Virus record (IMG/VR): IMGVR_UViG_3300028127_000017
Location: 1-31,416 of that record
Length of the DNA: 31,416 nt
DNA from: a virus
Strand: one strand, 5' to 3'
Both the position numbers and the translations under genes were made by a program. This document shows, one piece after another, positions 963 through 28,961 of the stretch. The notes below the pieces were generated by a model. That model was given only the letters and a program-made list of their open reading frames with translations. It made no database searches and was not told the DNA's origin. The first letter of the stretch is position 1. Each line of letters begins with the position of its first letter.

Positions 963-1721
963 TTAAAGGTAATCAAGCACTTGCGAGTGATCTACGTTAT
1001 CTATTAGCGTTTGTACTGCTTGCTTTTTCAACTCTGAAACAGTAACATAATAGCGCTTACCTTTGATATCTAATATCTCTGCAATCTCTTTTGCTGAGTG
1101 CTTATCACAATCTAAACCATAAGACAACCTCAATACTTCATACTCTCTTGCGTCTAAATGTTTTTTCATTAGACTTTTCAAGTAAGCATTCATTAAGTGA
1201 ATGTTATAAGGCTCAGACTTATCAGGTATTGATTCACTCCAGGATTCACCTTCATCTTCGTCGCTTCTAGCCGTGTCTATACTTAAAAACACTGAGTTGA
1301 AAAACAAAGCAACCGCTTTTTTATCATCAGGATTTTTACGTATTTCATTTAGCTTATGTTCTGGTATTCTAATGTTACCCCTACATATATCTATACGTCT
1401 TCTAATAGCTCCTTTGATTCGCTTGCTTAAGAATGACTTTAATGTTTTTTCAACGTCCTCAGACTCGTGTAAAACAGTCCAGTCTAATCGGTCAACAGCC
1501 TTAACTAATCCTTCACAACCGCATTGTATCAGATCATTGATGCTTAATACACCTGATGCTTGATCAGATGTAGAAAACTTTCTAGCTAAGTTCTCAACTA
1601 ATGGTATAAACTTTACTATAAGTTGATCTCTTGTATATTCATCCCAAAACAAACCTTCAGGCATAGATCTTTTTAGATCTTCTTTATACCTTATATAGTT
1701 TTGTATATTGTATTTTTTCAT
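963..1721 (-). CDS. phage-encoded sigma-70-type RNA polymerase sigma factor
   Basis: At 252 aa it is a short sigma factor with regions 2 and 4. Region 2 is near residues 60-115: DLIQCGCEGLVKAVDRLDW matches the sigma core-binding helix 'DLiQeG..GL..Av..fD', and a basic stretch (RIKGAIRRRID) follows. Region 4 is near residues 190-235, with a 'L..rE..vL.l.yGl' helix then AKEIAEILDIKGKRYYVTVSEL as the helix-turn-helix that would read the -35 element. No region 1.1 is seen. The first possible start is a GTG at 1742, but that lies inside the upstream promoter-like element, so the ATG at 1721-1719 (MKKYNIQ) is chosen. The gene is immediately downstream of one copy of the repeated left-arm promoter element, so the factor could drive its own synthesis and that of the other early units. 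Promoter specificity is inferred. Confidence 0.85.
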   Translation of the reverse strand: MKKYNIQNYIRYKEDLKRSMPEGLFWDEYTRDQLIVKFIPLVENLARKFSTSDQASGVLSINDLIQCGCEGLVKAVDRLDWTVLHESEDVEKTLKSFLSKRIKGAIRRRIDICRGNIRIPEHKLNEIRKNPDDKKAVALFFNSVFLSIDTARSDEDEGESWSESIPDKSEPYNIHLMNAYLKSLMKKHLDAREYEVLRLSYGLDCDKHSAKEIAEILDIKGKRYYVTVSELKKQAVQTLIDNVDHSQVLDYL

Positions 1722-1726
1722 ATCAT

Positions 1727-1761
1727 ATATATTATCGTGCACTCATCGTGTCCGTTCTGTA
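1727..1761 (-). promoter_or_regulatory. left-arm promoter element, copy 1 (sigma gene)
   Basis: On the minus strand: ACAGAACGGACACGA, nine bases, GATAATATA. It lies just upstream of the sigma factor ATG at 1721 and is the copy that deviates most at its 5' end. Confidence 0.68.
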
Positions 1762-1764
1762 ATT

Positions 1765-2385
1765 TTAAAATTCTTTGTTTAAAAGTGATTTTTCTTTTTT
1801 AAGTTCATTATTCATATTCCTGTGTATAGTTCTTGTAGAACAATTTAAAGACTCAGCTAACTTACTTATAGTTATTTTTTGATTGTCATGGTTTATTAAT
1901 AGCATAGCGTCATATATTTCACTTGATGAAATTTTGTTTCTACCTATCATTTGACCTACTATAGTAAGCTTTTGTCGCATATCTAACCCTGAACTATCTT
2001 TAAATATTATTTTACGAAGCTTATTAGGCGGAGGTTTTTCCAAATCCATAAGTGAAACATCGTATAACATAGTTTGTAATAGTTGCTCAGATACATTAAA
2101 TGTTACGAAGCCTTTAGTTTTATCACATATATACTCAATCAATGCGCTAAACGAGTCTTGATCCAATTGTGGATTCAAGTACCATAATACATACATATGC
2201 CACTTAAGGCTCTTATATGTATTTATTTTAGCTTTAGAGTTAAACAAAGTATAACATTCATGCGTTCCATTTTCATAAAACTTACCCCAATCAAAAGTTT
2301 CTGTAGGTAAATCATTTACTGGATCACGTCTGTATATTATACGATGCAACTCTAAATATCTTGTATTTCTTTCGTACTGTGACAT
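1765..2385 (-). CDS. helix-turn-helix DNA-binding protein
   Basis: This is a 206-aa protein. The C-terminal 40 residues carry a clear helix-turn-helix: ITISKLAESLNCSTRTIHRN, with the A-x3-G/N-x-S-x-RTI pattern typical of replication and transcription regulators, then a Lys-rich tail. The N-terminal 150 residues are rich in aromatics (FDWGKF, LKWHMYVLWYL) and match no domain I can name. The start at 2385-2383 lies inside the left half of a long inverted repeat (2379-2422), so the gene probably controls itself through that site or is controlled by whatever binds there. It is directly upstream of the sigma gene, with that gene's promoter element between them. A role as early regulator is inferred. 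A replication-initiation role is the main alternative. Confidence 0.6.
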   Translation of the reverse strand: MSQYERNTRYLELHRIIYRRDPVNDLPTETFDWGKFYENGTHECYTLFNSKAKINTYKSLKWHMYVLWYLNPQLDQDSFSALIEYICDKTKGFVTFNVSEQLLQTMLYDVSLMDLEKPPPNKLRKIIFKDSSGLDMRQKLTIVGQMIGRNKISSSEIYDAMLLINHDNQKITISKLAESLNCSTRTIHRNMNNELKKEKSLLNKEF

Positions 2386-2422
2386 TAGCCTCTTACTATT
2401 ATTATATACTAGCTATCGTCAC
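2379..2422. promoter_or_regulatory. GTGAC/TAGC long inverted repeat, site 1
   Basis: The left half GTGACATTAGC (2379-2389) and the right half GCTATCGTCAC (2412-2422) are an inverted repeat with a 22-bp AT-rich spacer. The right half read on the minus strand, GTGACGATAGC followed by TAGTATATAATAA, also looks like a promoter for the gene starting at 2385. That gene's ATG is inside the left half. Confidence 0.6.
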
Positions 2423-2423
2423 A

Positions 2424-2645
2424 CTAGTACACTATTAATTTTAATCTTCTGTTATACTTTTTTAAAAGCTTTGCTTTATTTTCTACATTACTGTATATAA
2501 CAGTTATACCTTTATTAAATTGAAATTCACCTTTAAAAGATTCAGCAATTATTTCACCGTGTAGCTCTGCTATCTTTAAGTGAAGAAACTTCACGTGTTT
2601 TGCTTTTCTTCTGTTCTTTTTGAATTTTTGTATTAATGTTCGCAT
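2424..2645 (-). CDS. small basic protein, unknown function
   Basis: A 73-aa, strongly basic protein with Lys/Arg clusters at both ends (KFKKNRRKAKHVK and KLLKKYNRRLK) around a short hydrophobic and acidic middle. I recognise no domain. Its start overlaps the 3' end of the upstream gene by 13 bases, and it is the last gene of the unit led by the promoter element at 3657. The charge suggests nucleic-acid binding, which is only an inference. Confidence 0.6.
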   Translation of the reverse strand: MRTLIQKFKKNRRKAKHVKFLHLKIAELHGEIIAESFKGEFQFNKGITVIYSNVENKAKLLKKYNRRLKLIVY

Positions 2646-3127
2646 AATTCGTTGATGTTGTGTGGACGTATAATTTTCTGCTCATTTTTGTTTTTTACTG
2701 TGTGTTTTTCGTTTTCGTAATAATTCCAGTAGCCAAGTACGCTATTACCGTTGACTTTATATTCGTCAGGCATACATTGCGGTGGCTGCTCGAAAGCTTT
2801 ATCAGATATACCGTTAGGCAAAGTGTATAGCACATCGCGGCATTTAGCGATTGTAAGATGTTCTTTACCGTAACGTTTTGTATATTCTTTACCAAGAGCT
2901 AACATATGTTCGTATGCCCACATATATGCTTCGGCAGAGGATCTAACCCATATAGCTGACGGATGGTTTTTATGCGTAGCTTTATATGGTATATCAATAT
3001 TAGTACCTAACTCGTGATGAGCTGTACATAATAGTTGTGCGGTTTCAAGTATCATTTTTACAACGTGCTTATTGTATTGATACTTAGCTGCTTGCACAGG
3101 ATCGTGAGATAGATAAAATATATTCAT
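2633..3127 (-). CDS. conserved phage protein (MNIFYL...HVVKMILETAQ family), unknown function
   Basis: A 164-aa protein of a family I recognise from many phages and some bacteria by its opening (MNIFYLSHDPVQAAKYQYNK, then HVVKMILETAQLLCTAHH) and by a THKNHPSAIWVRSS block followed by a 'Y..RYGK.H' helix. The many conserved His, Asp and Glu residues could form a metal or active site, but I know of no established function. The start overlaps the upstream stop as TAATG, i.e. translational coupling within the unit that begins at the KTSC gene. Confidence 0.8.
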   Translation of the reverse strand: MNIFYLSHDPVQAAKYQYNKHVVKMILETAQLLCTAHHELGTNIDIPYKATHKNHPSAIWVRSSAEAYMWAYEHMLALGKEYTKRYGKEHLTIAKCRDVLYTLPNGISDKAFEQPPQCMPDEYKVNGNSVLGYWNYYENEKHTVKNKNEQKIIRPHNINELCEH

Positions 3128-3411
3128 TACTTTAATTTTTTATTTAGGTTAATAATTTTATTATTTATTTTACTAGCTAATGTGAAGTTTTCATCCTCAA
3201 CTGCTTTGTCTAACTCTTGCTGTAGTTCGTCTATCTGCATGTGTATTATTTCTTGCTCAGACATCATACGCATATTACCAAAGCCGTCTTGTTTAATATT
3301 CTCCATTGATACTTGGAAGTCTTGATTCCATTCGTCTTGCTTTGCTTCTAAATGATCTATAATAATTTTAGCAGTTAGCTCGGCTATTTTAGTAATATCT
3401 TTTTCTGTCAT
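3127..3411 (-). CDS. small protein with UVR-like helical hairpin
   Basis: A 94-aa acidic, mostly helical protein. Residues about 58-94 (QIDELQQELDKAVEDENFTL, then ASKINNKIINLNKKL) have the pattern of the UVR motif, the two-helix segment of UvrB/UvrC and several stress-response adaptor proteins (I..L...L..A...E.F..A...r..I..L). The N-terminal half is a separate helix with no recognised match. The UVR motif normally makes protein-protein contacts. It sits between the KTSC gene and the MNIFYL-family gene in one unit, ending in a TAATG overlap with the next start. Confidence 0.6.
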   Translation of the reverse strand: MTEKDITKIAELTAKIIIDHLEAKQDEWNQDFQVSMENIKQDGFGNMRMMSEQEIIHMQIDELQQELDKAVEDENFTLASKINNKIINLNKKLK

Positions 3412-3414
3412 TTA

Positions 3415-3636
3415 TTATCTTTTAGTGAATTTAAATAATCTTTTAATGTTAGTGTTAATAAATTTACCTTTAGATTCAGCGTTCATTAATCCACGCCAAT
3501 AAAATAATGGTACGTCTTCGTACTCGTATACACCACCGTTTTCGTATATTAATACAAGCGTTTTGTTTTCGGTATAATATCTACCTGTTGAAATTGTTGA
3601 CGAATTGTCAGATCTAAATTTTTCAAAATTGTTCAT
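3415..3636 (-). CDS. KTSC-domain protein
   Basis: This 73-aa protein is essentially one KTSC domain. The family pattern (S..i....Y......L.v.y..G..Yey.dVP...y..l..A.S.G.f.n..Ik) is present: STISTGRYYTENKTLVLIYE, then GGVYEYEDVP, then NAESKGKFINTNIKRLF near residues 53-69. KTSC domains are found alone in phages or fused to replication-associated proteins, and have been suggested to bind nucleic acid. It is the first gene of a four-gene unit, 21 bases downstream of a promoter element copy. Confidence 0.8.
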   Translation of the reverse strand: MNNFEKFRSDNSSTISTGRYYTENKTLVLIYENGGVYEYEDVPLFYWRGLMNAESKGKFINTNIKRLFKFTKR

Positions 3637-3656
3637 AAGTTTTTTGTTTTTGTTTA

Positions 3657-3691
3657 TTATATTATCTTTGTTTGATCGTGTTCAGTCTGTA
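3657..3691 (-). promoter_or_regulatory. left-arm promoter element, copy 2
   Basis: Minus strand: ACAGACTGAACACGA, nine bases, GATAATATA. It leads the KTSC unit. The stop codon of the preceding micro-gene (TGA at 3684-3682) is formed by the ACTGAAC part of the element. Confidence 0.75.
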
Positions 3692-3762
3692 ATATCTTCT
3701 ATGTATAATAGTATTGTTAAACATAAAAGATACGCTATTATCCATATTATTATTGCTATCAT
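3682..3762 (-). CDS. 26-aa single-pass membrane micropeptide
   Basis: A 26-residue open frame that is almost wholly hydrophobic: MIAIIIWIIAYLLCLTILLY followed by a charged end (IEDITD). It would make one membrane helix. Support for reality comes from its placement: the ATG overlaps the stop codon of the GP88-family gene as TAATG, and its TGA stop lies inside the next promoter element. No relatives can be named. Small membrane peptides of phages often interfere with host membrane proteins, but that is only an analogy. Confidence 0.45.
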   Translation of the reverse strand: MIAIIIWIIAYLLCLTILLYIEDITD

Positions 3763-4367
3763 TAATGAAATACTAATCCTACTTTATTTGTTTTATTGAA
3801 CCACTTAGTAGCCATTAAATCAATAGAGCTGGCATCAGTATACGAAGCCCTATTAAGATCAGCATGGCTTGAGAAAATTTTTGTATGTCTATGTTTTGTC
3901 TCATCTATTAAATGTTTTTGTTTTCCAGAGTCACTGAATATTATATCGTAATTACTTGGTAATGAGGTTTTTAACATCATATCAATCATATTGGTGTAAC
4001 TGTAAAACCGTACGTTAGGATTGCTATTAGCAATGTCGATCCACTTTTTTAGATATGCGCGAGAATAATAATCGCCGCTATCATGGACTCTGACGTAATC
4101 AGGTTTCTTCTTACGTATTTCAGCGTTCATAGCATCAACAAACATGTCAGTCTTGCTGAGTTGATAACGCTTTTCAAACGCAGGTTTTACGTTACTCCAG
4201 ATGTAGGCTCCTTTCTTGGCATAACAGAATTTAACACAACTGTCAGCCATTGGGCACGTCAGTTTCCCGCTAGCAGATTTGTAGGCAGGAATACCGAAGT
4301 TAAAGACCCGGAGCCCGAGTTCTTTTGATGTTTTTTTAAGTTTAGTATTTTGTGTTAATAAGTTCAT
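3762..4367 (-). CDS. GP88-family phage protein
   Basis: A 201-aa protein of the phage 'gene product 88' family. The family landmarks are visible in order: NFGIPAYKS, then a cysteine cluster CPMADSCVKFCYAKKG (residues about 38-53, C-x6-C-x3-C), then YVRVHDSGDYYSRAYLKKW (about 91-109), then RFYSYTNM. The Cys cluster followed by CYA resembles metal or Fe-S binding sites. The biochemical role of the family is not established. It is first in its unit, about 12 bases downstream of a promoter element copy, and its stop overlaps the start of a membrane micropeptide. Confidence 0.8.
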   Translation of the reverse strand: MNLLTQNTKLKKTSKELGLRVFNFGIPAYKSASGKLTCPMADSCVKFCYAKKGAYIWSNVKPAFEKRYQLSKTDMFVDAMNAEIRKKKPDYVRVHDSGDYYSRAYLKKWIDIANSNPNVRFYSYTNMIDMMLKTSLPSNYDIIFSDSGKQKHLIDETKHRHTKIFSSHADLNRASYTDASSIDLMATKWFNKTNKVGLVFH

Positions 4368-4378
4368 AGTTTTTGTTT

Positions 4379-4414
4379 ATTATATTATCGATCAGCGATC
4401 GTGTTTAGTTTGTA
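4379..4414 (-). promoter_or_regulatory. left-arm promoter element, copy 3
   Basis: Minus strand: ACAAACTAAACACGA, nine bases, GATAATATA. It is a near-perfect consensus copy in front of the GP88-family gene and abuts the stop codon of the upstream gene. Confidence 0.78.
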
Positions 4415-4678
4415 TTAATCAAGCAACACCATATATGCTTCAACATTATTTTTACGAAACCAGTTCAACGCTTTTTGAAACTCGCTAACTTGTTTAGGTG
4501 TAACTGTTTTAGGTGCTACTTCAAATATATATTGGCTACCCATAATATAATCGTACATTGAGAGCTCGAGGCTGTTGAGTGTATAGCATTCGCCACTGAA
4601 CGGATTGGTTACTGTTTCACCTTCACCATATATGGTTCCTTTAAACCATTTAGGTACTGTTTGTTTTTTAGTTTTCAT
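4415..4678 (-). CDS. conserved phage protein (WFKGTIYGEGETVTNPFSG), unknown function
   Basis: An 87-aa protein with an N-terminal block WFKGTIYGEGETVTNPFSGE and a helical second half (LELSMYDYIMGSQ, then FQKALNWFRKNN). I recognise the first block from other marine phages, where the protein has no assigned role. It is the last of four overlapping genes transcribed from the promoter element at 5780, with an 11-base overlap with the gene before it. A copy of the TGCTATACA word (4580-4588) is embedded in its coding sequence. Confidence 0.7.
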   Translation of the reverse strand: MKTKKQTVPKWFKGTIYGEGETVTNPFSGECYTLNSLELSMYDYIMGSQYIFEVAPKTVTPKQVSEFQKALNWFRKNNVEAYMVLLD

Positions 4679-5327
4679 TTTTTAATTCTTTAAATATTAA
4701 TTCACCTTTAACAGCTCTTTCGATAGTTAGACCATAATGATTAGCTACAATCTCATACCTGGCTCTGTCTTTAATTATTTGACTAGCATAGTTTAAGTAC
4801 CTATAGTCTTCATCTACTGTTAGATTTATAGCTCTTGAGCTACCGTCTAAAAAACTACAATCTTGAGAGATCATTTCTATGTATTGCAGTGTATTTATAG
4901 GGTTAACTATTTTATGGTTATAACCTTCATTAAGTAACTCATCTATAATTTCGTCTTCCATTTTACATAATAGATCTTCGTAGTGTCTAGTGATAGCATC
5001 TTCAACAAAGTCATAGTTGTCACAGTATATCTGATTGTAGTCAGGTATTACTTCGTATAACGCGTCTGTAAGTTCGTTTTCATAGTAGTACACATCTTCG
5101 TTTACGTTTATACGAGTTGTATCAGCGGCAGCTATCCATACAGAGTAGCCATCAGCGGTTGACTCTTCATATATACTGAAGTCAGGGTTTTGCCATTGAT
5201 CTGTTACCTCACACTCATAGTGTGCAAGTACTTGGTTTCTAGCATGCTCATCATCACAACCTTCAATCCAACCTTTTGATTCCATTCTTTGAGCTATTAA
5301 CTCATCGGTTATATATTTATTCTTCAT
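4668..5327 (-). CDS. acidic protein of unknown function
   Basis: A 219-aa, strongly acidic protein rich in Asp, Glu and Tyr, for example NEDVYYYENELTDALYEVIP and KMEDEIIDELLNEGY. No domain is recognised. No signal peptide or membrane segment is present. It overlaps both neighbours by 11 bases, so it is translated as part of a tight four-gene unit. Its charge would suit a DNA mimic or protein-binding inhibitor, but nothing in the sequence proves that. Confidence 0.7.
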   Translation of the reverse strand: MKNKYITDELIAQRMESKGWIEGCDDEHARNQVLAHYECEVTDQWQNPDFSIYEESTADGYSVWIAAADTTRINVNEDVYYYENELTDALYEVIPDYNQIYCDNYDFVEDAITRHYEDLLCKMEDEIIDELLNEGYNHKIVNPINTLQYIEMISQDCSFLDGSSRAINLTVDEDYRYLNYASQIIKDRARYEIVANHYGLTIERAVKGELIFKELKNEN

Positions 5328-5532
5328 CTGTTTCTATTAATTTAGTGATGTATTGCCACACCTTTAATTCTATTTTATTACTGTTTAATACTATATCCAT
5401 CTCGTGTGATGTAACACCTCCGTAGTTACCTGTACGTATATCTTCTTTGTTTTGCTCGATCGTAATCAAGAGCATAGACATTTTAGCGAAAGCTTTGTCG
5501 CTTGCTCGTTGTTGTAGTTCTTGTTTAGTCAT
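5317..5532 (-). CDS. small helical protein, unknown function
   Basis: A 71-aa, mainly helical protein (ELQQRASDKAFAKMSMLLIT, then NKIELKVWQYITKLIETDEE). Not recognised. It overlaps the upstream gene by 8 bases and the downstream gene by 11 bases, which supports it as an expressed member of the unit at 4415-5758. Confidence 0.6.
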   Translation of the reverse strand: MTKQELQQRASDKAFAKMSMLLITIEQNKEDIRTGNYGGVTSHEMDIVLNSNKIELKVWQYITKLIETDEE

Positions 5533-5758
5533 CGCTATCTATTAAAATGTTATCGCCAAACCTGTAGTCCCACGCTGATACTCTGAGTGCATTTATATTA
5601 CACATATCGTAGATATCTCTGATCTCGCTTATAGTTAGCTCACCGTAAAACTTACTGCTTTCTAGTTTAGCAATAATTCTTGTTGACGTAAACTTGTAAT
5701 CACTTTGATTAATAAGTTTAATGTACTTAGGTTTAATTGATTGTAGTAAATTGCTCAT
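5525..5758 (-). CDS. small protein, unknown function
   Basis: A 77-aa protein with a basic N-terminus (SIKPKYIKLINQ) and an acidic end (FGDNILIDSDD). Not recognised. It is the first gene of a four-gene overlapping unit, about 25 bases downstream of a consensus promoter element. Confidence 0.6.
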   Translation of the reverse strand: MSNLLQSIKPKYIKLINQSDYKFTSTRIIAKLESSKFYGELTISEIRDIYDMCNINALRVSAWDYRFGDNILIDSDD

Positions 5759-5779
5759 GTTATTTGTATTTTAAATTCA

Positions 5780-5815
5780 TATATATTATCGATAGGTAGT
5801 CGTGTTTAGTTTGTA
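5780..5815 (-). promoter_or_regulatory. left-arm promoter element, copy 4
   Basis: Minus strand: ACAAACTAAACACGA, nine bases, GATAATATA. It leads the four-gene unit 5758-4415. The stop codon of the upstream gene is two bases from its 5' end. Confidence 0.78.
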
Positions 5816-5816
5816 A

Positions 5817-6020
5817 TTAATCTTGGTATTTTTTAAGTGTCATACTATTTACTTTATCAATGATCTCATTACCTACCATAGTGAAATAACCGGGTGCATA
5901 CAATGATCTTTTACCTTCAGATTCAGTAGCTAATACATCTTTTTCTGCTTCTTCAATAGCGTGTCTTAACGCTGTTTGAATGAAATACTTTTCAAATCCG
6001 TTAAATTTTGTTTTACTCAT
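5817..6020 (-). CDS. small helical protein, unknown function
   Basis: A 67-aa protein starting MSKTKFNGFEKYFIQTALRH. It has a helical N-terminal half and a short YAPGYFTMVGNEIIDKVN block. Not recognised. The open frame extends upstream to an ATG at 6086, but those 22 codons run through the tRNA-like hairpin at 6041-6093, so the ATG at 6020-6018 is preferred. The nearest promoter element is the copy at 6281, so this gene would be translated from the 3' end of the structured transcript described there. Confidence 0.6.
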   Translation of the reverse strand: MSKTKFNGFEKYFIQTALRHAIEEAEKDVLATESEGKRSLYAPGYFTMVGNEIIDKVNSMTLKKYQD

Positions 6021-6278
6021 TTTATTTAATTTTAAATTAGCGGACGTACGGGAATCGAACCCGTTTGAAGTTATCTTCGTTACCATATCGTCCTACCCAG
6101 ACATTTCCTAGCCACATAGTGGAGACGTTATTTATTCGCTGGGTTTGTTAACATTCCTGAGTTCATAACGATCCCTCACCAGTTCAGTTAACTTTTATAA
6201 AGAAGCGTGATCGGCGTCTAACTCATTTTCATCATTAGATATACCGGCCGGTCCACCGATGTTTGCTTCCGTATTACA
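6021..6278 (-). ncRNA. candidate structured non-coding RNA / gene-free leader
   Basis: About 260 bases with their own promoter element upstream and no convincing ATG-started gene. On the minus strand it contains a 10-bp palindrome ACCGGCCGGT (6244-6253), a long hairpin closed by GTTAAC at 6187-6192 and 6147-6152 with a second pairing CTGA/TCAG inside, a CCAC-TAT-GTGG hairpin (6113-6123), and at its 3' end the tRNA-like module. It is more GC-rich than its surroundings. One frame reads like protein but lacks a start and has an internal TAA (about 6271-6134), so a decayed gene is the main alternative. Confidence 0.4.
6041..6093 (-). other. tRNA-like element (T arm and acceptor) lacking D and full anticodon arms
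   Basis: Read on the minus strand, ACGGG-TTCGATT-CCCGT (6064-6048) is a perfect 5-bp T stem with a canonical 7-base T loop. It is followed directly by ACGTCCG. The CGTCC of that tail pairs with GGACG at 6093-6089. Between these lie TATGGTAAC, resembling a D loop, and a short hairpin GAAG-ATAA-CTTC. The whole is about 53 nt, too short for a working canonical tRNA. It may be a tRNA relic, an attachment-site half tRNA, or the 3' module of the structured RNA. Confidence 0.45.
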
Positions 6279-6280
6279 TT

Positions 6281-6314
6281 TATATTATCATTGGGTGATC
6301 GTGTTTTGTTTGTA
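6281..6314 (-). promoter_or_regulatory. left-arm promoter element, copy 5
   Basis: Minus strand: ACAAACAAAACACGA, nine bases, GATAATATA. It precedes the structured region 6278-6021 rather than an ATG. The last six codons and TGA stop of the upstream gene (6288-6479) are spelled by the element itself. Confidence 0.75.
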
Positions 6315-6479
6315 CATTATTTCGATCGCACGTTGCATTACTTGCTGGTGTATAGCATTGTAGTCGTCACCGTCGGCGGGATAATCGCCTAGTTGCCAGT
6401 CAATACTGTCTTCCATTAGTTCGAGAGTTATGTTAGCGACGCTCTCCGCTATTTCGTATAAGTTTCTTTTATTGCTCAT
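6288..6479 (-). CDS. small acidic protein, unknown function
   Basis: A 63-aa protein, mostly helical with an acidic centre (MEDSIDWQLGDYPADGDDYN). Not recognised. Its C-terminus QNTITQ and TGA stop are encoded by the promoter element for the next unit. Its start overlaps the stop of the 39-aa gene upstream by 11 bases. A TGCTATAC word lies at 6349-6357 within it. Confidence 0.55.
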   Translation of the reverse strand: MSNKRNLYEIAESVANITLELMEDSIDWQLGDYPADGDDYNAIHQQVMQRAIEIMYKQNTITQ

Positions 6480-6588
6480 ATATTCTAGTTTTTAATTCAT
6501 TTACTTTTTCTTGTAAGTACCAATCATCTTCGTAGTTGAGGTTGATGTACATTGATAATTCTTGTAATAGATCCGCTGCTAACTTCAT
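6469..6588 (-). CDS. 39-aa helical protein, unknown function
   Basis: MKLAADLLQELSMYINLNYE then DDWYLQEKVNELKTRIYEQ: a small amphipathic helical peptide of 39 residues. It is placed exactly between two neighbours: the preceding gene's stop is at 6590 and its own 3' end overlaps the next start by 11 bases. This spacing is the main reason to accept it. Confidence 0.55.
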   Translation of the reverse strand: MKLAADLLQELSMYINLNYEDDWYLQEKVNELKTRIYEQ

Positions 6589-6589
6589 A

Positions 6590-6772
6590 TTATTGTTTTT
6601 TTAAGTAAGTTAATCCTTTGTAGTTGAACCACTCAGTTATACCTTCTTGATCTTTATCTTCGTTGTAGATAAAACCGAACGTTGATGGTAACTCACCGAC
6701 AAGATATGGTTTATATACTTTACCGTTTAATACTATTTGTTTTGAGTGGATAAATTTAATTGTATTTTTCAT
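6590..6772 (-). CDS. 60-aa protein, unknown function
   Basis: Reads MKNTIKFIHSKQIVLNGKVY and then a compact beta-rich stretch (FGFIYNEDKDQEGITEWFNY). Not recognised. It is the first gene of a three-gene unit, about 20 bases downstream of a promoter element copy. Confidence 0.55.
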   Translation of the reverse strand: MKNTIKFIHSKQIVLNGKVYKPYLVGELPSTFGFIYNEDKDQEGITEWFNYKGLTYLKKQ

Positions 6773-6791
6773 TATATTAGTTTTAGATTCG

Positions 6792-6827
6792 TATATATTA
6801 TCAATCTTTAATCGTATTCAGTTTGTA
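6792..6827 (-). promoter_or_regulatory. left-arm promoter element, copy 6
   Basis: Minus strand: ACAAACTGAATACGA, nine bases, GATAATATA. It leads the unit 6772-6288. The stop TGA of the upstream gene (6803-6801) is made by the GATTGATAA junction of the element. Confidence 0.75.
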
Positions 6828-7055
6828 AAAATCTTTTACCGCTTTTTCGGTTAGAGGTTTTAAGCTTTTATGGTATTCTACATTATCTATGTAGTAGTCG
6901 ATCGCTTCTTGCATTCTCTTTTCAGTGAACTTTGTAAACACGCTTACATCTGTGTGTTTGAGTAGATCAACGTCGTTGCATTGGTACATTGTTGACGTGA
7001 CATCTTGCCAATTTGTTACTTGAATTTCTTTATATGAATAACCTCTATGCTCCAT
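6801..7055 (-). CDS. 84-aa protein, unknown function
   Basis: A helical, slightly acidic protein (for example EKRMQEAIDYYIDNVEYHKS). Not recognised. It starts within the last codons of the upstream gene (11-base overlap), and its C-terminus LNTIKD is encoded by the next promoter element. Confidence 0.6.
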   Translation of the reverse strand: MEHRGYSYKEIQVTNWQDVTSTMYQCNDVDLLKHTDVSVFTKFTEKRMQEAIDYYIDNVEYHKSLKPLTEKAVKDFYKLNTIKD

Positions 7056-7299
7056 TATTTACATTTATTGTTACTTCTACCCAGCCTTTTTCAGAGTGAC
7101 CAGCGTATACTCTTAAGCCGTCATTCACTAGTATATCTACTAATTTTTGCGCTGCTCGCCAAAGACTTGGTTCTGGCATTTCATCGTGTTCGTCGTCGTA
7201 CATTACTTCGCCTCTACATTGGTAGAATATATCATTTACATCGTTTTCTACTAGTTCAAAATCCCAACCGTTCACGGTTATATTTTCACATAATTCCAT
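7045..7299 (-). CDS. 84-aa acidic protein, unknown function
   Basis: An acidic protein with a predicted alpha/beta layout: a strand-rich start (ITVNGWDFELVEND), a helix (SLWRAAQKLVDILVNDG), then LRVYAGHSEKGWVEVTINV as two strands. Not recognised. It is the second gene of the unit led by the promoter at 7400. Its start lies three bases after the stop of the 25-aa micro-gene. Confidence 0.6.
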   Translation of the reverse strand: MELCENITVNGWDFELVENDVNDIFYQCRGEVMYDDEHDEMPEPSLWRAAQKLVDILVNDGLRVYAGHSEKGWVEVTINVNNGA

Positions 7300-7301
7300 A
7301 G

Positions 7302-7379
7302 TTAATTTCTTATTGCCCAGGCCGCCGCGGTGCCAAGATCGGTTAATACTCTGTTTGCTTTACTTAATAGTTTTCTCAT
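7302..7379 (-). CDS. 25-aa micropeptide, unknown function
   Basis: MRKLLSKANRVLTDLGTAAA then WAIRN. It is the first open frame after the promoter element at 7400, and its stop is three bases from the next ATG. Basic and amphipathic. It could be a real micro-gene or a leader peptide for the following gene. Confidence 0.4.
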   Translation of the reverse strand: MRKLLSKANRVLTDLGTAAAWAIRN

Positions 7380-7399
7380 TGTTTATTATTTTAATTTCG

Positions 7400-7435
7400 T
7401 ATATATTATCAATAGGTGATCGTATTTAGTTTGTA
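7400..7435 (-). promoter_or_regulatory. left-arm promoter element, copy 7
   Basis: Minus strand: ACAAACTAAATACGA, nine bases, GATAATATA. The TAA in ACTAAAT is also the stop codon of the upstream gene (7428-7426). Confidence 0.78.
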
Positions 7436-7647
7436 GTCACTGGTTGGTTGTAGTGGTTCCACAATTTAGTGTGGGAGAACGATCTACCTTTACTACCTGA
7501 TCCTTTACCTTTAGTTTTCACTTTTCGGTATTCTTTCGCTGTCAACCCTGAGCAATATTCACCCTGAGTTACTGTTTTGCGGTGATGTATAGCATCCGCT
7601 TTTCTCTTTTGTGCGACGTATGCACACACTTCTTTCATTGTCATCAT
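7426..7647 (-). CDS. 73-aa basic protein, unknown function
   Basis: A basic, Lys- and Gly-rich protein (VKTKGKGSGSKGRSFSHTKL). Not recognised; nucleic-acid binding is plausible from charge only. The start could be either the first Met or the Met three codons in (MMTMKEV). Its stop codon is part of promoter copy 7. It contains a TGCTATACATCACC word (7586 region) shared exactly with the intergenic copy at 8164-8178. Confidence 0.55.
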   Translation of the reverse strand: MMTMKEVCAYVAQKRKADAIHHRKTVTQGEYCSGLTAKEYRKVKTKGKGSGSKGRSFSHTKLWNHYNQPVTTN

Positions 7648-7648
7648 A

Positions 7649-7735
7649 TTATTCTTGATTATTATTTATTAACCACATTAACTGTGCATACTCTTCATAC
7701 TCTTGTTCGCTATTAAATCCGTGATATTCTTTCAT
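7649..7735 (-). CDS. 28-aa acidic micropeptide, unknown function
   Basis: MKEYHGFNSEQEYEEYAQLM then WLINNNQE. It fits between two genes with one base on each side (upstream stop at 7737, downstream ATG at 7647), which is the evidence that it is translated. Not recognised. Confidence 0.45.
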   Translation of the reverse strand: MKEYHGFNSEQEYEEYAQLMWLINNNQE

Positions 7736-7736
7736 A

Positions 7737-7943
7737 TTATTCTACTTTAAATGTATTAGGTAATAATGGTACTAAATGTCTTGCCACTGAAGTTCCGTTG
7801 TTAGCGTGATCACATATTAGTTGGGCTAACTCACCTTGCATAGTAAATAGTTCTTCTTGATCGATTAGGTCGCATAGGAAAAAATTGTCGCCACCTAGTA
7901 TTTCTATAAATTCTTCAATAAATTCAACATTTTTTGGTTTCAT
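7737..7943 (-). CDS. 68-aa acidic protein, unknown function
   Basis: Starts MKPKNVEFIEEFIEILGGDN and is acidic and helical, ending RHLVPLLPNTFKVE. Not recognised. The frame is open further upstream to 8057, but those codons run through the promoter element at 7964 and the repeat region, so the ATG at 7943-7941 is taken as the start. First gene of a three-gene unit. Confidence 0.6.
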   Translation of the reverse strand: MKPKNVEFIEEFIEILGGDNFFLCDLIDQEELFTMQGELAQLICDHANNGTSVARHLVPLLPNTFKVE

Positions 7944-7963
7944 AAGTATTATTTTTAAATTCA

Positions 7964-8000
7964 CATATATTATCGTTAGGTGATCGTATTTGTTTTGTAA
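7964..8000 (-). promoter_or_regulatory. left-arm promoter element, copy 8
   Basis: Minus strand: ACAAAACAAATACGA, nine bases, GATAATATA. It lies about 21 bases upstream of the ATG at 7943. Confidence 0.72.
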
Positions 8001-8044
8001 AGGTGTAAAAATATTAGTGAGTAAAAATAGTAGAGAAAGTATTA

Positions 8045-8141
8045 CACTACCTCTCAAAGTGAGTAAAACTAGGTAATTTCACTACAAATAGAGTGTTTTT
8101 TAGTTAATTTGCCTACAAAGTGGAGGTTTTTAGGTGATTTT
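8045..8141. repeat. iteron-like imperfect repeats, about 31-35 bp
   Basis: Three adjoining units start CACTACCTC (8045), CACTACAAA (8080) and GCCTACAAA (8111). Each continues with an AGTG or GAGG, a T- or A-run, and ends in TAATTT or GATTTT. Each unit has short self-complementary ends (CACT...AGTG, CCT...AGG). A further half unit, GTGAGTAAAA, is at 8014. Tandem units of this size in a gene-free control region resemble replication-origin iterons or protein-binding arrays. Confidence 0.4.
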
Positions 8142-8277
8142 CACTTAAGATCGTAGCATATTGGGTGATGTATAGCATTTAAACGTCGCGTAGGGCGGAG
8201 TCTACTCTTCCGGTGTATAGCAAAATACCCAGGCCAAGCCTCGCAACGGAACTTCCGAAGCGGTAAGGTTAAAAAGT
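8142..8277. other. gene-free GC-rich stretch next to inverted-repeat site 2
   Basis: No start-to-stop gene is credible here. The stretch is clearly richer in GC than its surroundings. It holds two TGTATAGCA words (8169 and 8214) and a CGGAA-c-TTCCG hairpin near 8246-8257. If transcribed from the minus-strand side of the site at 8278-8322 it would be a short untranslated RNA. Confidence 0.35.
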
Positions 8278-8322
8278 GTGACGTTAGCTTGTTATATTAA
8301 TATAATAGTAGGCTATTGTCAC
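8278..8322. promoter_or_regulatory. GTGAC/TAGC long inverted repeat, site 2
   Basis: GTGACGTTAGC (8278-8288) and GCTATTGTCAC (8312-8322) form an inverted repeat with a 23-bp spacer. The spacer centre TATATTAATATA is itself self-complementary, so a -10-like element can be read both ways. Confidence 0.62.
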
Positions 8323-8331
8323 GTTTTTTGT

Positions 8332-8427
8332 TTACTCTTCGTTATCGAATTCTGCCCATTCCAGGCATGATCCACATAACTCGTCTGATAGATAGCTCGC
8401 TTCTGAGCCGCAGCAATTTGAATACAT
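8332..8427 (-). CDS. 31-aa Cys-cluster micropeptide (possible zinc knuckle)
   Basis: Starts MYSNCCGSEASYLSDELCGS and ends CLEWAEFDNEE. Two Cys pairs, CC at residues 5-6 and C-x2-C at 18-21, could bind one zinc ion in the manner of small phage zinc-ribbon proteins. It is alone in its unit, 20 bases downstream of a promoter element, and its end is close to inverted-repeat site 2. Confidence 0.55.
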   Translation of the reverse strand: MYSNCCGSEASYLSDELCGSCLEWAEFDNEE

Positions 8428-8445
8428 AATTTTTGTTTTATTTGT

Positions 8446-8480
8446 TAATATTATCGTTTGTTACTCGTGTTTGTGTTGTC
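8446..8480 (-). promoter_or_regulatory. left-arm promoter element, copy 9
   Basis: Minus strand: ACAACACAAACACGA, nine bases, GATAATATT. It precedes the 31-aa Cys-cluster gene. Confidence 0.68.
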
Positions 8481-8497
8481 AGGGGTTGATCCTAAGA

Positions 8498-8836
8498 CTA
8501 CTTTTCAGTAGCCTCAGTTTCAATTGTTACACGATCTGACAGATGTCTCGTGTTAGCCGGCATATCAGTCGACTGTGACCAGTATCCACGTTTGATCCAA
8601 CATGGCATGATGTTTAGTTTCGGGAGCATTAGTTCCAGTACTTCATCGTGATTGTACGTTACTTTGACACTTGGCTTTGTCTTAGTCGCTTTCGTGTTGA
8701 AAGTTATGATTTGATTTCGGCCGAGCCATGATTTACGGACTACGAAGTTGGCTCTTGTGATCGGAGGGAAGATAGTCGCTTTTTCTTCGTTTGACATGTT
8801 TGCGATCGCGTTTGTAATTAATTCTTGATTTGACAT
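8498..8836 (-). CDS. 112-aa protein, unknown function
   Basis: A 112-residue, slightly basic protein. The N-terminus is helical (NQELITNAIANMSNEEKATI), and the middle is beta-rich and aromatic (FVVRKSWLGRNQIITFNTKA, IKRGYWSQSTDMP). Not recognised. It forms a single-gene unit about 40 bases downstream of a promoter element. Confidence 0.65.
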   Translation of the reverse strand: MSNQELITNAIANMSNEEKATIFPPITRANFVVRKSWLGRNQIITFNTKATKTKPSVKVTYNHDEVLELMLPKLNIMPCWIKRGYWSQSTDMPANTRHLSDRVTIETEATEK

Positions 8837-8878
8837 AATTTAAATTTATTTAGTTATTATTATTTTATTTGTTATTCA

Positions 8879-8914
8879 CTTATATTATCGAATTGTCTTC
8901 GTATTTAGTTTGTA
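8879..8914 (-). promoter_or_regulatory. left-arm promoter element, copy 10
   Basis: Minus strand: ACAAACTAAATACGA, nine bases, GATAATATA. The TAA inside ACTAAAT (8907-8905) is the stop codon of the 35-aa gene upstream. Confidence 0.78.
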
Positions 8915-9012
8915 TATTCTTTTTCAATTTCTATTAGAACTTTGATATATTCGTTTAGATCTTTTTGATTTACTATTTTTTCTATTTTTAATAATTTTTC
9001 TAAGTTATTCAT
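8905..9012 (-). CDS. 35-aa helical micropeptide, unknown function
   Basis: Starts MNNLEKLLKIEKIVNQKDLN and ends with an amphipathic Glu/Lys helix closing YTN. Leu/Ile spacing would allow a short coiled coil. It has its own promoter element about 26 bases upstream, and its stop is inside the next element. Confidence 0.5.
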   Translation of the reverse strand: MNNLEKLLKIEKIVNQKDLNEYIKVLIEIEKEYTN

Positions 9013-9037
9013 AATTTATATTTTATTTGTTATTCAC

Positions 9038-9073
9038 TTATATTATCGAAATGAGATCGTGTTCACTCTGTCA
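9038..9073 (-). promoter_or_regulatory. left-arm promoter element, copy 11
   Basis: Minus strand: ACAGAGTGAACACGA, nine bases, GATAATATA. It leads the 35-aa gene. Confidence 0.75.
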
Positions 9074-9076
9074 AAA

Positions 9077-9137
9077 TGCTATACGCAGTATGCTATACGT
9101 GCTATACAGCCTTCGGCTGCGCCTCCGGTCCTGAGCA
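9077..9137. other. TGCTATAC triplet and GC-rich hairpin
   Basis: Three TGCTATAC words begin at 9077, 9091 and 9100. They are followed by CAGCC-TTC-GGCTG, a perfect hairpin near 9108-9120, and CTGAG-catta-CTCAG at 9131-9145, which overlaps the stop of the 46-aa gene. This may terminate or process the minus-strand transcript ending there, but no U-run follows in that direction. Confidence 0.35.
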
Positions 9138-9278
9138 TTACTCAGTCGTGTTCCAAGCCTTGAGCTGGGCTGAGGTCAGTTGCTGTTCCCTGGTCTGATC
9201 CTTAGTCTGGTCTCCGATCCAGATACATTGCACGTAACTGGTTCCATCTGGTCTGGTTCTGATTTCTGATCTGTACAT
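9138..9278 (-). CDS. 46-aa polar protein, unknown function
   Basis: Starts MYRSEIRTRPDGTSYVQCIW and continues IGDQTKDQTREQQLTSAQLK. The start overlaps the stop of the 55-aa gene by one base (TAATG), and codon use is more GC-rich than in the rest of the arm. Not recognised. Confidence 0.5.
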   Translation of the reverse strand: MYRSEIRTRPDGTSYVQCIWIGDQTKDQTREQQLTSAQLKAWNTTE

Positions 9279-9445
9279 TATATTATATCTAATTTAGTTA
9301 GTATGTCTTCAAGTATATCTTCTTCAAGGAATTGATCCTGGTCGTAGTCTGTTTTCATGATCTCGATGTAGGCTTTGATCTGGTCAACCTGTCCTGGGTA
9401 TCTGTCGTAGATCTGTTGATCTATTCTGGTTACTATTGGTTTCAT
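9278..9445 (-). CDS. 55-aa acidic protein, unknown function
   Basis: Starts MKPIVTRIDQQIYDRYPGQV and ends in an acidic helix (FLEEDILEDILTKLDII). It is the first gene of a two-gene unit and the most upstream gene of the left arm, with a promoter element about 25 bases upstream. Not recognised. Confidence 0.55.
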   Translation of the reverse strand: MKPIVTRIDQQIYDRYPGQVDQIKAYIEIMKTDYDQDQFLEEDILEDILTKLDII

Positions 9446-9468
9446 ATCTTATATTTATTTTAGATTCA

Positions 9469-9505
9469 CTTATATTATCGGATCTCCATCGTATTCGTCT
9501 TGTAC
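9469..9505 (-). promoter_or_regulatory. left-arm promoter element, copy 12
   Basis: Minus strand: ACAAGACGAATACGA, nine bases, GATAATATA. It is the rightmost copy; none was seen on the right arm. Confidence 0.72.
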
Positions 9506-9780: not shown

Positions 9781-9789
9781 TCAACAAGT

Positions 9790-9833
9790 GTGACATTAGC
9801 TAGTTATATATATTAATAAGAGGCTATCGTCGC
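9790..9833. promoter_or_regulatory. GTGAC/TAGC long inverted repeat, site 3 (between the two arms)
   Basis: GTGACATTAGC (9790-9800) and GCTATCGTCGC (9823-9833) form an inverted repeat with a 22-bp spacer containing TATATATATTAATA. It is the last shared control site before the plus-strand late genes begin at 9898, so it is the best candidate for an early/late switch or a bidirectional promoter. Confidence 0.62.
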
Positions 9834-9871
9834 GTTTGTGTATATTGTAAAATTTAGGTATAACATGTAAG

Positions 9872-23745: not shown

Positions 23746-25299
23746 ATGAACGGAATTGTCAAAAACTTGAACTTTGGTGACGATGCTAGAGATCAAGTAT
23801 TTAAAGGAATAGAGAAGTTAGCAAATGCTGTCAGCTCTACATTAGGAGCTGGCGGTAAATGCGTGATGCTAGAAGATGATACGGGTAAACCCGTGATAAC
23901 AAAAGACGGTGTTACTGTGGCTGATTCTATAATATTGTTTGATCCAGTGGAAAACATGGGATCCACATTGTTAAAGGAAGCTGCTAGAAAAACTGTTCAA
24001 GAAGCAGGTGACGGTACAACTACCGCAACTGTTTTAGCTCACGCTATATTAAAAGAAGCTTATGCTGTTTCAGAAAAGAAAAATGCCAGAGAAATAAAAG
24101 ATGGTATAAATTCTGCGGTTGAAAAAGTAATTAAGTATTTAGAAAAGCTAGCGGTTGACGTGAAAGGAGACATGCTGGATAATATAGCTTCTATATCCGT
24201 TAACAACGACAATGAATTAGGTTCTATTATAGCTGATGCGTTTAGGTCTGTAGACAATACAGGTATTGTAATGATGGAAACTGCCGGTGACGGTAAAACT
24301 GTTTCTGAATTAATTGAAGGTGTACCTTACGACAAAGGTTTAACAAATTCTCATTTCATTACAAACGAACAAACAAAAACAGCTGAATTAGAAAATCCAT
24401 TAGTATTAATCATGGAATCACCAGTTAATACTATAAGAGATATACAAAAAGTGCTGGAGTACGTAATAAAAAACAATAAACCTTTGCTTATTATAGGCGA
24501 CTTAGAACAAGGTGTTTTATCAACTCTGGCTACCAATAAAAAGAAAGGTAACCTAAAAGTAAATGTAATCAATGCTCCTACTTATGGTATTAGCAAACGT
24601 GAAGTACTTGAAGATCTATCTTTACTAACTGGTGCTACAATAGTCAATGAAGATTTAGGCGATGACCTTGATTCAATTGATGTAGAGTATTTAGGATCTT
24701 GTTTAAAAAGTGTTACCTCACACGAGGACACTGTTATAACGGTCTCTGAGGCATCCGAAAAGATAAAGGATGTAATACGTAGCATAAAAGAAAAGCTTAC
24801 TAATAACACGCTAAAAAGCTGGGAAGTTATAAAGCTTGAAAAAAGATTATCAATGTTAACCGCTAAAATTGCAGTGGTTAAAGTTGGTGCAAACTCTGAA
24901 GTAGAGTTAAAAGAGAAAACTGATAGAGTTGAAGATGCTATCTGTGCAACAAAAGCAGCCGTAAAAGAAGGTATTGTACCAGGTGGTGGCGTTGCATTAT
25001 TAAATGCTTCAACATATATTAAAAGTGAAGGACTAGGTGAAGAAGTTTTATTAAGAGCTATAAAAGCCCCTTACTTTACAATATTAGAAAATGCAGGTAT
25101 CACAGCATCGCAATCACAAGACAAAGGTATTGGTTTGAATGCAATAACGGGAGAACCTGTAGATATGGTTAAACACGGTATAATTGATCCGTTAATGGTA
25201 ACCAAAAGTGCATTAAGAAATGCTGCATCCGTAGCTACTACTATATTATCAACTGATTGTGTAATTAATAATTTAAGAGCAAATGAAGGCGATAGGTAG
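23746..25299 (+). CDS. groEL: phage GroEL chaperonin
   Basis: This 517-aa chaperonin is 60-kDa class, somewhat shorter than the bacterial 540-550 aa. The nucleotide site is intact: ITKDGVTVAD (Asp near 54), VQEAGDGTTTATVLAH (catalytic Asp at about 89) and, near the C-terminus, DRVEDAICATKAAVKEGIVP then GGGVALL. The equatorial, intermediate and apical layout is complete. The usual C-terminal GGM tail is missing; the protein ends INNLRANEGDR, where the gene overlaps groES. It would form rings that fold phage or host proteins, probably the large structural proteins coded upstream. The order groEL then groES is the reverse of most bacteria. Confidence 0.95.
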   Translation: MNGIVKNLNFGDDARDQVFKGIEKLANAVSSTLGAGGKCVMLEDDTGKPVITKDGVTVADSIILFDPVENMGSTLLKEAARKTVQEAGDGTTTATVLAHAILKEAYAVSEKKNAREIKDGINSAVEKVIKYLEKLAVDVKGDMLDNIASISVNNDNELGSIIADAFRSVDNTGIVMMETAGDGKTVSELIEGVPYDKGLTNSHFITNEQTKTAELENPLVLIMESPVNTIRDIQKVLEYVIKNNKPLLIIGDLEQGVLSTLATNKKKGNLKVNVINAPTYGISKREVLEDLSLLTGATIVNEDLGDDLDSIDVEYLGSCLKSVTSHEDTVITVSEASEKIKDVIRSIKEKLTNNTLKSWEVIKLEKRLSMLTAKIAVVKVGANSEVELKEKTDRVEDAICATKAAVKEGIVPGGGVALLNASTYIKSEGLGEEVLLRAIKAPYFTILENAGITASQSQDKGIGLNAITGEPVDMVKHGIIDPLMVTKSALRNAASVATTILSTDCVINNLRANEGDR

Positions 25300-28355: not shown

Positions 28356-28961
28356 ATGAGAAGTCTATACGATTTTATCGTCAAACCTATTGGCGATAGA
28401 TACGATAACAAAATAAAGCTAGGCGACGTTACATTAATACTAAACACTAAAATTGAAGACTTTAAGTCTGTAAACAATTTAGCTATAGTGGTTGAAACAC
28501 CAAAAGCTTTTAAAACAAGTATAAAAAAAGGAGACATAATAATAATACATCATAATGTATTTAGAGTTTTTTATGATATCCGAGGTAATAAGAAAAGAAG
28601 TAGATCTCATTTTAAAGATGATTTACACTTTTGTTCAGCAGATCAAATATATTTGTATAAAAATACAGAGGATTGGAAATCATTTGGAGACAGATGCTTT
28701 GTAATGCCTTTAAAAAACAAAGACACTTTAAGATCACAAAAAGAGCAAGACCTTATTGGTATATTAAAAATAGGTAATAGTTCTTTAAAAGCGCTTAATA
28801 TCAATCCAGGGGACACAGTAGGGTTTACACCCGGCAGTGAATGGGATTTTATAATAGACGATCAAAGAGTTTATTGTATGAAATCTAATGATATTGTAAT
28901 TAAGTATGAACACAAAAGAAACCAAGAAGAATATAATCCTAGCTGGGCAAAAAGCAGTTAA
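28356..28961 (+). CDS. GroES-like protein with two tandem domains (possible co-chaperonin homologue)
   Basis: 201 aa. Domain 1 (residues about 8-110) reads KPIGDRYDNKIKLGDVTLIL, then LAIVVETPKAFKTSIKKGDI, HHNVFRVFYDIRG and ADQIYLYK. It has the co-chaperonin order: opening 'kPigdr', a mobile-loop-like insert, '..V...P......ikkGD.v..h.', ending 'D.I..yk'. Domain 2 (about 112-190) reads RCFVMPLK, GILKIGNSS, LNINPGDTVGFTPGSEWDFI and VYCMKSNDIVIKY, a second copy of the same layout. I recall similar proteins in other marine phages. Co-chaperonin activity is inferred; it could instead be a structural barrel protein. It overlaps the next gene by 56 bases. Confidence 0.55.
   Translation: MRSLYDFIVKPIGDRYDNKIKLGDVTLILNTKIEDFKSVNNLAIVVETPKAFKTSIKKGDIIIIHHNVFRVFYDIRGNKKRSRSHFKDDLHFCSADQIYLYKNTEDWKSFGDRCFVMPLKNKDTLRSQKEQDLIGILKIGNSSLKALNINPGDTVGFTPGSEWDFIIDDQRVYCMKSNDIVIKYEHKRNQEEYNPSWAKSS

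Follow-up and report, generated by a model that had tools for sequence, protein, structure and literature searches.

Phages phiEco32 and 7-11 encode a sigma-70-family factor that acts with the host core RNA polymerase, and their sigma gene is itself transcribed from phage-type and host-type promoters (PMC4331800). The middle promoters of phage T4 are used by host sigma-70 together with AsiA and MotA; the MotA box is centred at -30, 12 ± 1 bp from -12TATAAT-7 (PMC2988021). In Flavobacterium psychrophilum, the sigma-A box is TAnnTTTG; sigma-54, TAnnTTGY, and extracytoplasmic function (ECF)-like motifs have been mapped as well (PMC9723704). Here, we analyzed the viral record IMGVR_UViG_3300028127_000017 (31,416 bases; this whole stretch is referred to as the window), in which twelve copies of a promoter-like element, ACARACTRAAYACGA-N9-GATAATATA, lie in the left arm beside a gene for a phage sigma-70-family factor. 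Judged from the sequence, these elements almost certainly represent a real, conserved class of phage promoters, because they show strand and arm bias, fixed geometry, a purine at the predicted transcription start (+1), and near-exclusive co-occurrence with the sigma factor, and because they are unlike the host promoter. It is probable that they are phage-specific promoters used by the host core polymerase together with the phage's own group-3-like sigma-70 factor of 252 amino acids (aa), and that they drive small left-arm genes and one RNA gene.

The window shares with phiEco32 and 7-11 a phage-coded sigma-70-family factor and conserved promoters on phage genes. In contrast to those phages, where such promoters drive the middle genes and the late (structural) ones, the promoters of the window precede only small left-arm genes and not the structural arm. 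Moreover, the promoter word is unrelated, the host phylum differs, and no anti-sigma gene was identified in the window virus. As in T4 middle promoters, a phage word at a fixed distance from the -10 box takes the place of the host -35, but the window virus codes for a complete sigma factor. No MotA- or AsiA-like families were found among the left-arm proteins scanned, most of the small ones matching nothing. Literature searches returned no description of this motif, nor any phage-sigma promoter class in phages that infect Bacteroidetes, a phylum dominant in the sea whose own promoter is unusual.

Twelve copies of a two-part element in the left arm

The preliminary description of the window listed twelve minus-strand copies of the element with a fixed 9-base spacing. 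All twelve were found, 0–2 bases away from the positions listed there (low ends of the 33-bp element), and the N9 spacing was unchanged in each of them. The proposed consensus held only in part, as ACARACTRAAYACGA-N9-GATAATATA and its 15-base upstream word in full were exact in only six copies, but the core ACGA-N9-GATAATAT was invariant (12/12) and GATAATATA was present in 11 of 12. One mismatch to the consensus was found in the copies at 6281 and 9039, two at 7966, three at 1728 and 9471, and four at 8447. In first-order Markov sequence, 0.007 cores are expected per window, with a maximum of one in 300 runs. The exact core occurred 12 times on the minus strand and never on the plus strand, always between 1728 and 9503, and the only plus-strand site with a single mismatch (24165) falls within the GroEL gene. 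The family is thus limited to the left arm and to one strand, as had been noted.

Eleven copies precede an ATG, as claimed, which lies 6–44 bases past the element. From the outer end of the series, the first copy of the left arm (9471..9503, predicted +1 at 9467) precedes a 55-aa gene (9278-9445), and the next (9039..9071, +1 at 9035) a 35-aa open reading frame (ORF) starting at 9012. A 112-aa gene (8498-8836) follows the copy at 8881..8913 (+1 at 8877), and a 31-aa ORF follows the weakest copy, with four mismatches and the sequence GATAATATT (8447..8479, +1 at 8443). The copy at 7966..7998 (+1 at 7962) lies before a 68-aa ORF starting at 7943, and that at 7402..7434 (+1 at 7398) before a 25-aa ORF with the first ATG and then an 84-aa gene (7045-7299). 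Further copies precede a 60-aa gene (6590-6772; copy 6794..6826, +1 at 6790), a structured non-coding stretch (copy 6281..6313, +1 at 6277), a 77-aa gene (5525-5758; copy 5782..5814, +1 at 5778), a GP88-family gene (3762-4367; copy 4381..4413, +1 at 4377), and a 73-aa KTSC-domain gene (3415-3636; copy 3658..3690, +1 at 3654). The last copy (1728..1760, +1 at 1724) belongs to the sigma gene, whose ATG is at +4; it has three mismatches but an exact core, and its distance of 6 bases to the ATG is the shortest. All copies are on the minus strand. Three of the eleven downstream ORFs have merely 25–35 aa and are unproven as genes.

A repeat that has no promoter function (a mobile repeat, an operator only, or a translational leader) would be compatible with the A-rich leader conserved downstream of the element and with the location of eleven copies ahead of ORFs. 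Such a repeat is nevertheless highly improbable, as the N9 spacer varies freely, the genes behind the sites are unrelated and include one RNA gene, and the fixed geometry is retained between lineages whose genes have diverged far.

Promoter geometry and comparison with host promoters

With GATAAT placed at -12..-7, transcription would start at a conserved purine 7 nucleotides (nt) past this box. An alignment of non-identical sites from five lineages had this purine, at position 37, in 55 of 55 (32 G, 23 A) and a preference for T at -1; a second set had the purine in 66 of 68 sites. In this frame, TACAAA occupies -37..-32 with a 17-bp spacer, GATAATATA occupies -12..-4, and AAYACGA, at -28..-22, is an extra part beyond the TACAAA. 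The upstream word had been described as not being a -35. Its sequence is indeed not TTGACA-like, yet TACAAA stands at the -35 position with a canonical 17-bp spacer.

The phage element does not resemble TAnnTTTG at -12..-5, the host-type box used for comparison, with a flavobacterium as the presumed host. The -7/-10 box of flavobacterial sigma-A promoters has a similar distance to +1, but is unrelated in sequence to the phage element (PMC9723704). No TTG-N17-20-TAnnTTTG site was found in the left arm of the window, and the sigma-bearing phages examined showed no enrichment of host-type promoters.

The phage sigma factor

The sigma gene (963..1721, minus strand) codes for a 252-aa protein with region 2, a region-3.0-like GNIRIPEHKLNEIR segment, and region 4. 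Its assignment as a sigma-70-type factor was confirmed by the NCBIfam sigma-70 superfamily model TIGR02937 (57.2 bits, cut-off 42.9) and by phrog_351 (1.9e-23); the scores against the Pfam models of regions 2 and 4 were slightly under the cut-offs. The AlphaFold2 model had a mean predicted local distance difference test score (pLDDT) of 73.8 and a predicted TM-score of 0.46. Nearly all top matches in a fold search with this model were sigma subunits of polymerase complexes, although with different domain placement (large root-mean-square deviation). The nearest solved structure by sequence is that of the sigma-28 factor FliA (1rp3). The FliA -10 box, GCCGATAA, is resembled by the phage -10 GATAA. 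Unlike sigma-28 promoters, the phage element lacks a TAAA at the distance of the sigma-28 -35 and adds AAYACGA, and region 4 of the protein differs.

The earlier proposal that the regulon includes the sigma gene itself holds for the window. Among the lineages examined, sigma is directly preceded by a copy in only three, namely the window clade, L234, and L243. Directly upstream of sigma lies a gene for an HTH_11 protein (1765..2385, minus strand). This protein is absent from the lineages with class-B promoters (defined below) and is thus not needed for the promoter core. The sigma match in G010 (G010:C1:8080-8838) contains a TAA just ahead of the conserved MKKY start, and the gene is intact.

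Association of the motif with the sigma factor

The link between motif and sigma factor is strong but indirect. In IMG/VR, at least 203 stretches code for a sigma of this family. Across 91 loci around sigma genes, a set that includes a few re-fetched copies of one place, the relaxed core ACGA-N9-GATAA had 290 occurrences on the strand of the sigma gene and 4 on the opposite strand. Among gaps of 0–24 in the sigma-bearing records, only gap 9 was enriched. Five contigs or contig parts carry sigmas 80–100% identical to that of the window and the same promoters, and G005, G007, G008, G010, and G014 (sigmas 61–73% identical) carry ACGA-N9-GATAATA. L461 and L462 retain ACAAACTAAATACGA, with sigmas 61% and 53% identical to that of L219, another family member. 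The -10 half is retained in all sigma lineages.

In 2.9 million viral contigs, AATACGA-N9-GATAATATA occurred in at least 120 stretches, compared to 18 for the reversed pattern, all of them single. The sigma gene was found in 26 of the 40 long motif contigs not already known, and in none of nine control contigs. In 13 of the 14 sigma-less motif contigs, the sites lie within ~10 kb of a contig end past which sigma should follow; the remaining one (G054) has one mid-contig site, which is probably a chance occurrence. No other sigma-70 region-2 matches were found in these 14 contigs. The complete sigma-less relatives phi38:1, elemoA, and MW202828 have no motif sites. G009 and G015 were rejected as sigma-less controls, as both are without a left arm.

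These distributions bear on the idea that the elements are early promoters for the host polymerase in its unmodified form, with a host sigma, and that the phage sigma serves a different class of genes. The sites do lie before small, early-looking genes, and because sigma has no copy of its own in most lineages, host reading would also solve the question of how the first sigma is made. We consider this unlikely, as the motif shows no likeness to TAnnTTTG or to the other F. psychrophilum motifs, including the sigma-54 and ECF-type motifs, is absent from the complete sigma-less flavobacterial relatives, and is almost confined to phages with this sigma.

Two side observations concern the sigma-bearing contigs. 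G001 (IMGVR_UViG_3300047157_000162; 129,537 bases) apparently consists of two related phage genomes fused in one contig, with two sigma genes (81% and 100%) and doubled TerL and primase-like ORFs. Close sigma relatives (L251-L257) also occur on short contigs in the bins of bacterial metagenome-assembled genomes (Aliivibrio, Halieaceae, Ilumatobacteraceae, Lewinella, and Flavobacteriaceae); these are probably misbinned phage contigs.

Concerted rewriting of the upstream word

De novo motif models were built for each locus by expectation maximization; a stricter run was used, as the first run had drifted to A-rich background. The upstream word varied by lineage, while GATAAT remained constant. 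By eye, the consensus strings were assigned to five classes: TACAAA..AAYACGA (class A), TCGAAA..TAATACGA (class B), TTACAAACAAAAT..TTGGATAAT (class C), CACGGACTTA (class D), and TGCAGA (class E). The classes track the sigma tree (7 changes compared to 18.5 in shuffles), which is expected of any lineage trait.

The start of the T7 promoter is resembled by TAATACGA. This likeness, together with the giant virion proteins (2300–3300 aa) of these phages, would suit a phage or virion RNA polymerase as the user of the element. Such a polymerase is a very unlikely user given the two-part -35/-10-like geometry with a variable spacer, the sigma-like +1, and the 9-base gap, which contrasts with the compact T7 promoter. 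No motif or family match to a cognate single-subunit polymerase was found, the window being a fragment and the giant ORFs partly scanned. There was no DFDGD-type motif in ORFs of >400 aa of G002 and G014, and only one in G005, located in a tail-arm ORF; the giant virion ORF of G014 had no polymerase match.

What is most interesting about the finding is that the upstream words were rewritten in concert. G017 has class-C promoters, yet its genome is overwhelmingly class-B-like. At least four G017 promoters before genes common to G007 and G018 were rewritten; at four clear orthologues, with proteins 62–98% identical to those of G007, the word was replaced and GATAAT was retained. Evidently, a trans-acting reader of the upstream word changed in G017, as far as can be read from these sequences. 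Region 4.2 of sigma is not obviously the cause of this switch, and its recognition segment, SASYVRISELKKQA, is the same in G017 (class C) and G018 (class B).

Recognition of the promoters and timing of transcription

In the proposed mechanism, the host core RNA polymerase carrying the phage sigma would initiate at the purine +1 of the element, and the block of small left-arm genes and the RNA gene would be transcribed with leaders of mostly 10–45 nt. The first sigma would come from another promoter, from read-through, or from weak reading by the host; afterwards, the copy before the sigma gene would provide positive feedback in the window lineage. The regulon had been called early, a term that fits this scheme poorly. 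Genes that depend on a sigma made by the phage would be expected after the first wave, unless the sigma is packaged or the host reads the promoters weakly, and delayed-early or middle timing is more natural than first-wave timing.

Several observations weigh against use of the elements by the phage sigma as just outlined. Most lineages have no copy directly before sigma, which leaves bootstrapping unexplained. The sigma-less controls are distant phages, and sigma and motif are linked also by descent. In G005, G007, G017, and G018, an apparent ATG is found at position -6 relative to the predicted start (GATAATATGACT). This is at odds with initiation 7 nt past GATAAT, unless translation begins at a different codon or the gene is transcribed by read-through. 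The word of G017 differs from that of G007 and G018, although the sigmas are 91% and 84% identical. Conversely, the region-4.2 helices vary widely (GKRYYVTVSEL, VNTANVRVSQI, VPTATVIVSQI), whereas the class-A upstream word is constant. Since the word switched with sigma hardly changed and stayed constant over a changed helix, reading of the word by sigma itself is doubtful. The regulon had been proposed to be read by the phage sigma; what stands of this is a strand-specific, left-arm, non-host promoter family tied to the sigma. Region 2 of sigma very probably reads GATAATATA, and region 4 is not necessarily the sole reader of the -37..-22 word.

A variant of this scheme is a promoter with two readers, similar to T4 middle promoters, where sigma would read GATAATATA and a second phage or host DNA-binding protein would recognise the -37..-22 word, which would stand in for a -35. 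This arrangement is a refinement of the use of the elements by core polymerase and phage sigma, and confidence in the two overlaps; we regard it as possible rather than probable. The word, at ~15 bp, is longer than a -35 hexamer, and AAYACGA ends 9 bp from GATAAT (12 ± 1 bp for the T4 MotA box and its -10). Two readers would also account for the rewritten word in G017, where the orthologous genes, GATAAT, and sigma changed little, and for the constant class-A word. On the other hand, a small number of residues elsewhere in sigma, not in the helix, could be enough, and no candidate reader was found. The HTH protein (1765-2385) was rejected as word reader, being absent in class B, which retains AATACGA. 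No G017 gene convincingly switched its allegiance; neither of the most promising ones (37246-37551 and 31825-32513) could be recognised as a DNA-binding reader. A single sigma residue for class B versus C was also dropped, because no alignment column separates B from C in a way that groups G017 with class C. Tentatively, the reader of the word may be a trans-acting factor distinct from sigma or a hitherto unrecognised sigma surface, with a specificity that switched regulon-wide several times while the -10 was untouched; G007/G018 versus G017 would then be a recent natural switch. With near-identical sigmas, orthologous genes, and rewritten upstream words, these phages offer a natural experiment in concerted promoter evolution, and the sigma family provides a ready set of orthogonal promoters.

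The probable RNA gene behind the 6281 copy

The non-coding stretch behind the 6281 copy (6036..6277, minus strand) contains a GGAAGC...GCTTCC hairpin followed by a tRNA-like 3' part, GGGTTCGATTCCCG. In the near relative G001b, the same promoter is followed by a tRNA-Met gene. The 6281 copy thus probably drives an RNA gene, which argues for a promoter and against a translational function. Rfam and ARAGORN gave no match on the window stretch. An initial assignment as tmRNA was dropped, as near relatives carry tRNA-Met at this place.

Long tRNA-like elements of ~60–200 nt, with a T-arm GGTTCGATTCC and a pairing acceptor-like stem, adjoin tRNA-Met. They are located at 6036-6277 of the window (minus strand), at ~1-450 and 63300-63573 of G002, and upstream of tRNA-Met in G017, G023, G024, and G031. 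These elements possibly form an undescribed RNA group.

The virus, its relatives, and other repeats

The ~31-kb window covers part of the genome of an uncultured flavobacterial podovirus. TerL shares 64.8% identity with its counterpart in the uncultured podovirus MW202828 and ~45% with that of Flavobacterium phage elemo, and the matches include Cellulophaga and Tenacibaculum phages. The named phage collection contained no close relative. The TerL matches, the two-arm layout, and the GroEL/GroES genes place the virus among the podoviruses of marine flavobacteria, as distant kin of Elemovirus/Pervagoviridae (elemo, Cellulophaga phage phi38:1), and we infer a flavobacterial host. Elemo and phi38:1 likewise have two-arm podovirus genomes, GroEL/GroES genes, and TerL 35–45% identical to that of the window, but they have neither such a sigma nor any motif copy. 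In the window, the GroEL gene (23746-25299; Pfam 1e-59) and a GroES-like gene (28356-28961) lie in the structural arm.

Two further repeats were observed in the window. An imperfect inverted repeat, GTGACRATAGCY-N~20-RGCTAAYGTCACA, is present in three copies (2378-2422, 8276-8325, and 9785-9835), one overlapping the start of the HTH gene (1765-2385) and one at the divergent arm boundary; it is a possible operator. The 7-mer GCTATAC/GTATAGC occurs twelve times (666, 2825, 4581, 6350, 7587, 8170, 8215, 9078, 9092, 9101, 9510, and 14945), with 11 of the 12 occurrences in the left third of the window, inside and between genes.

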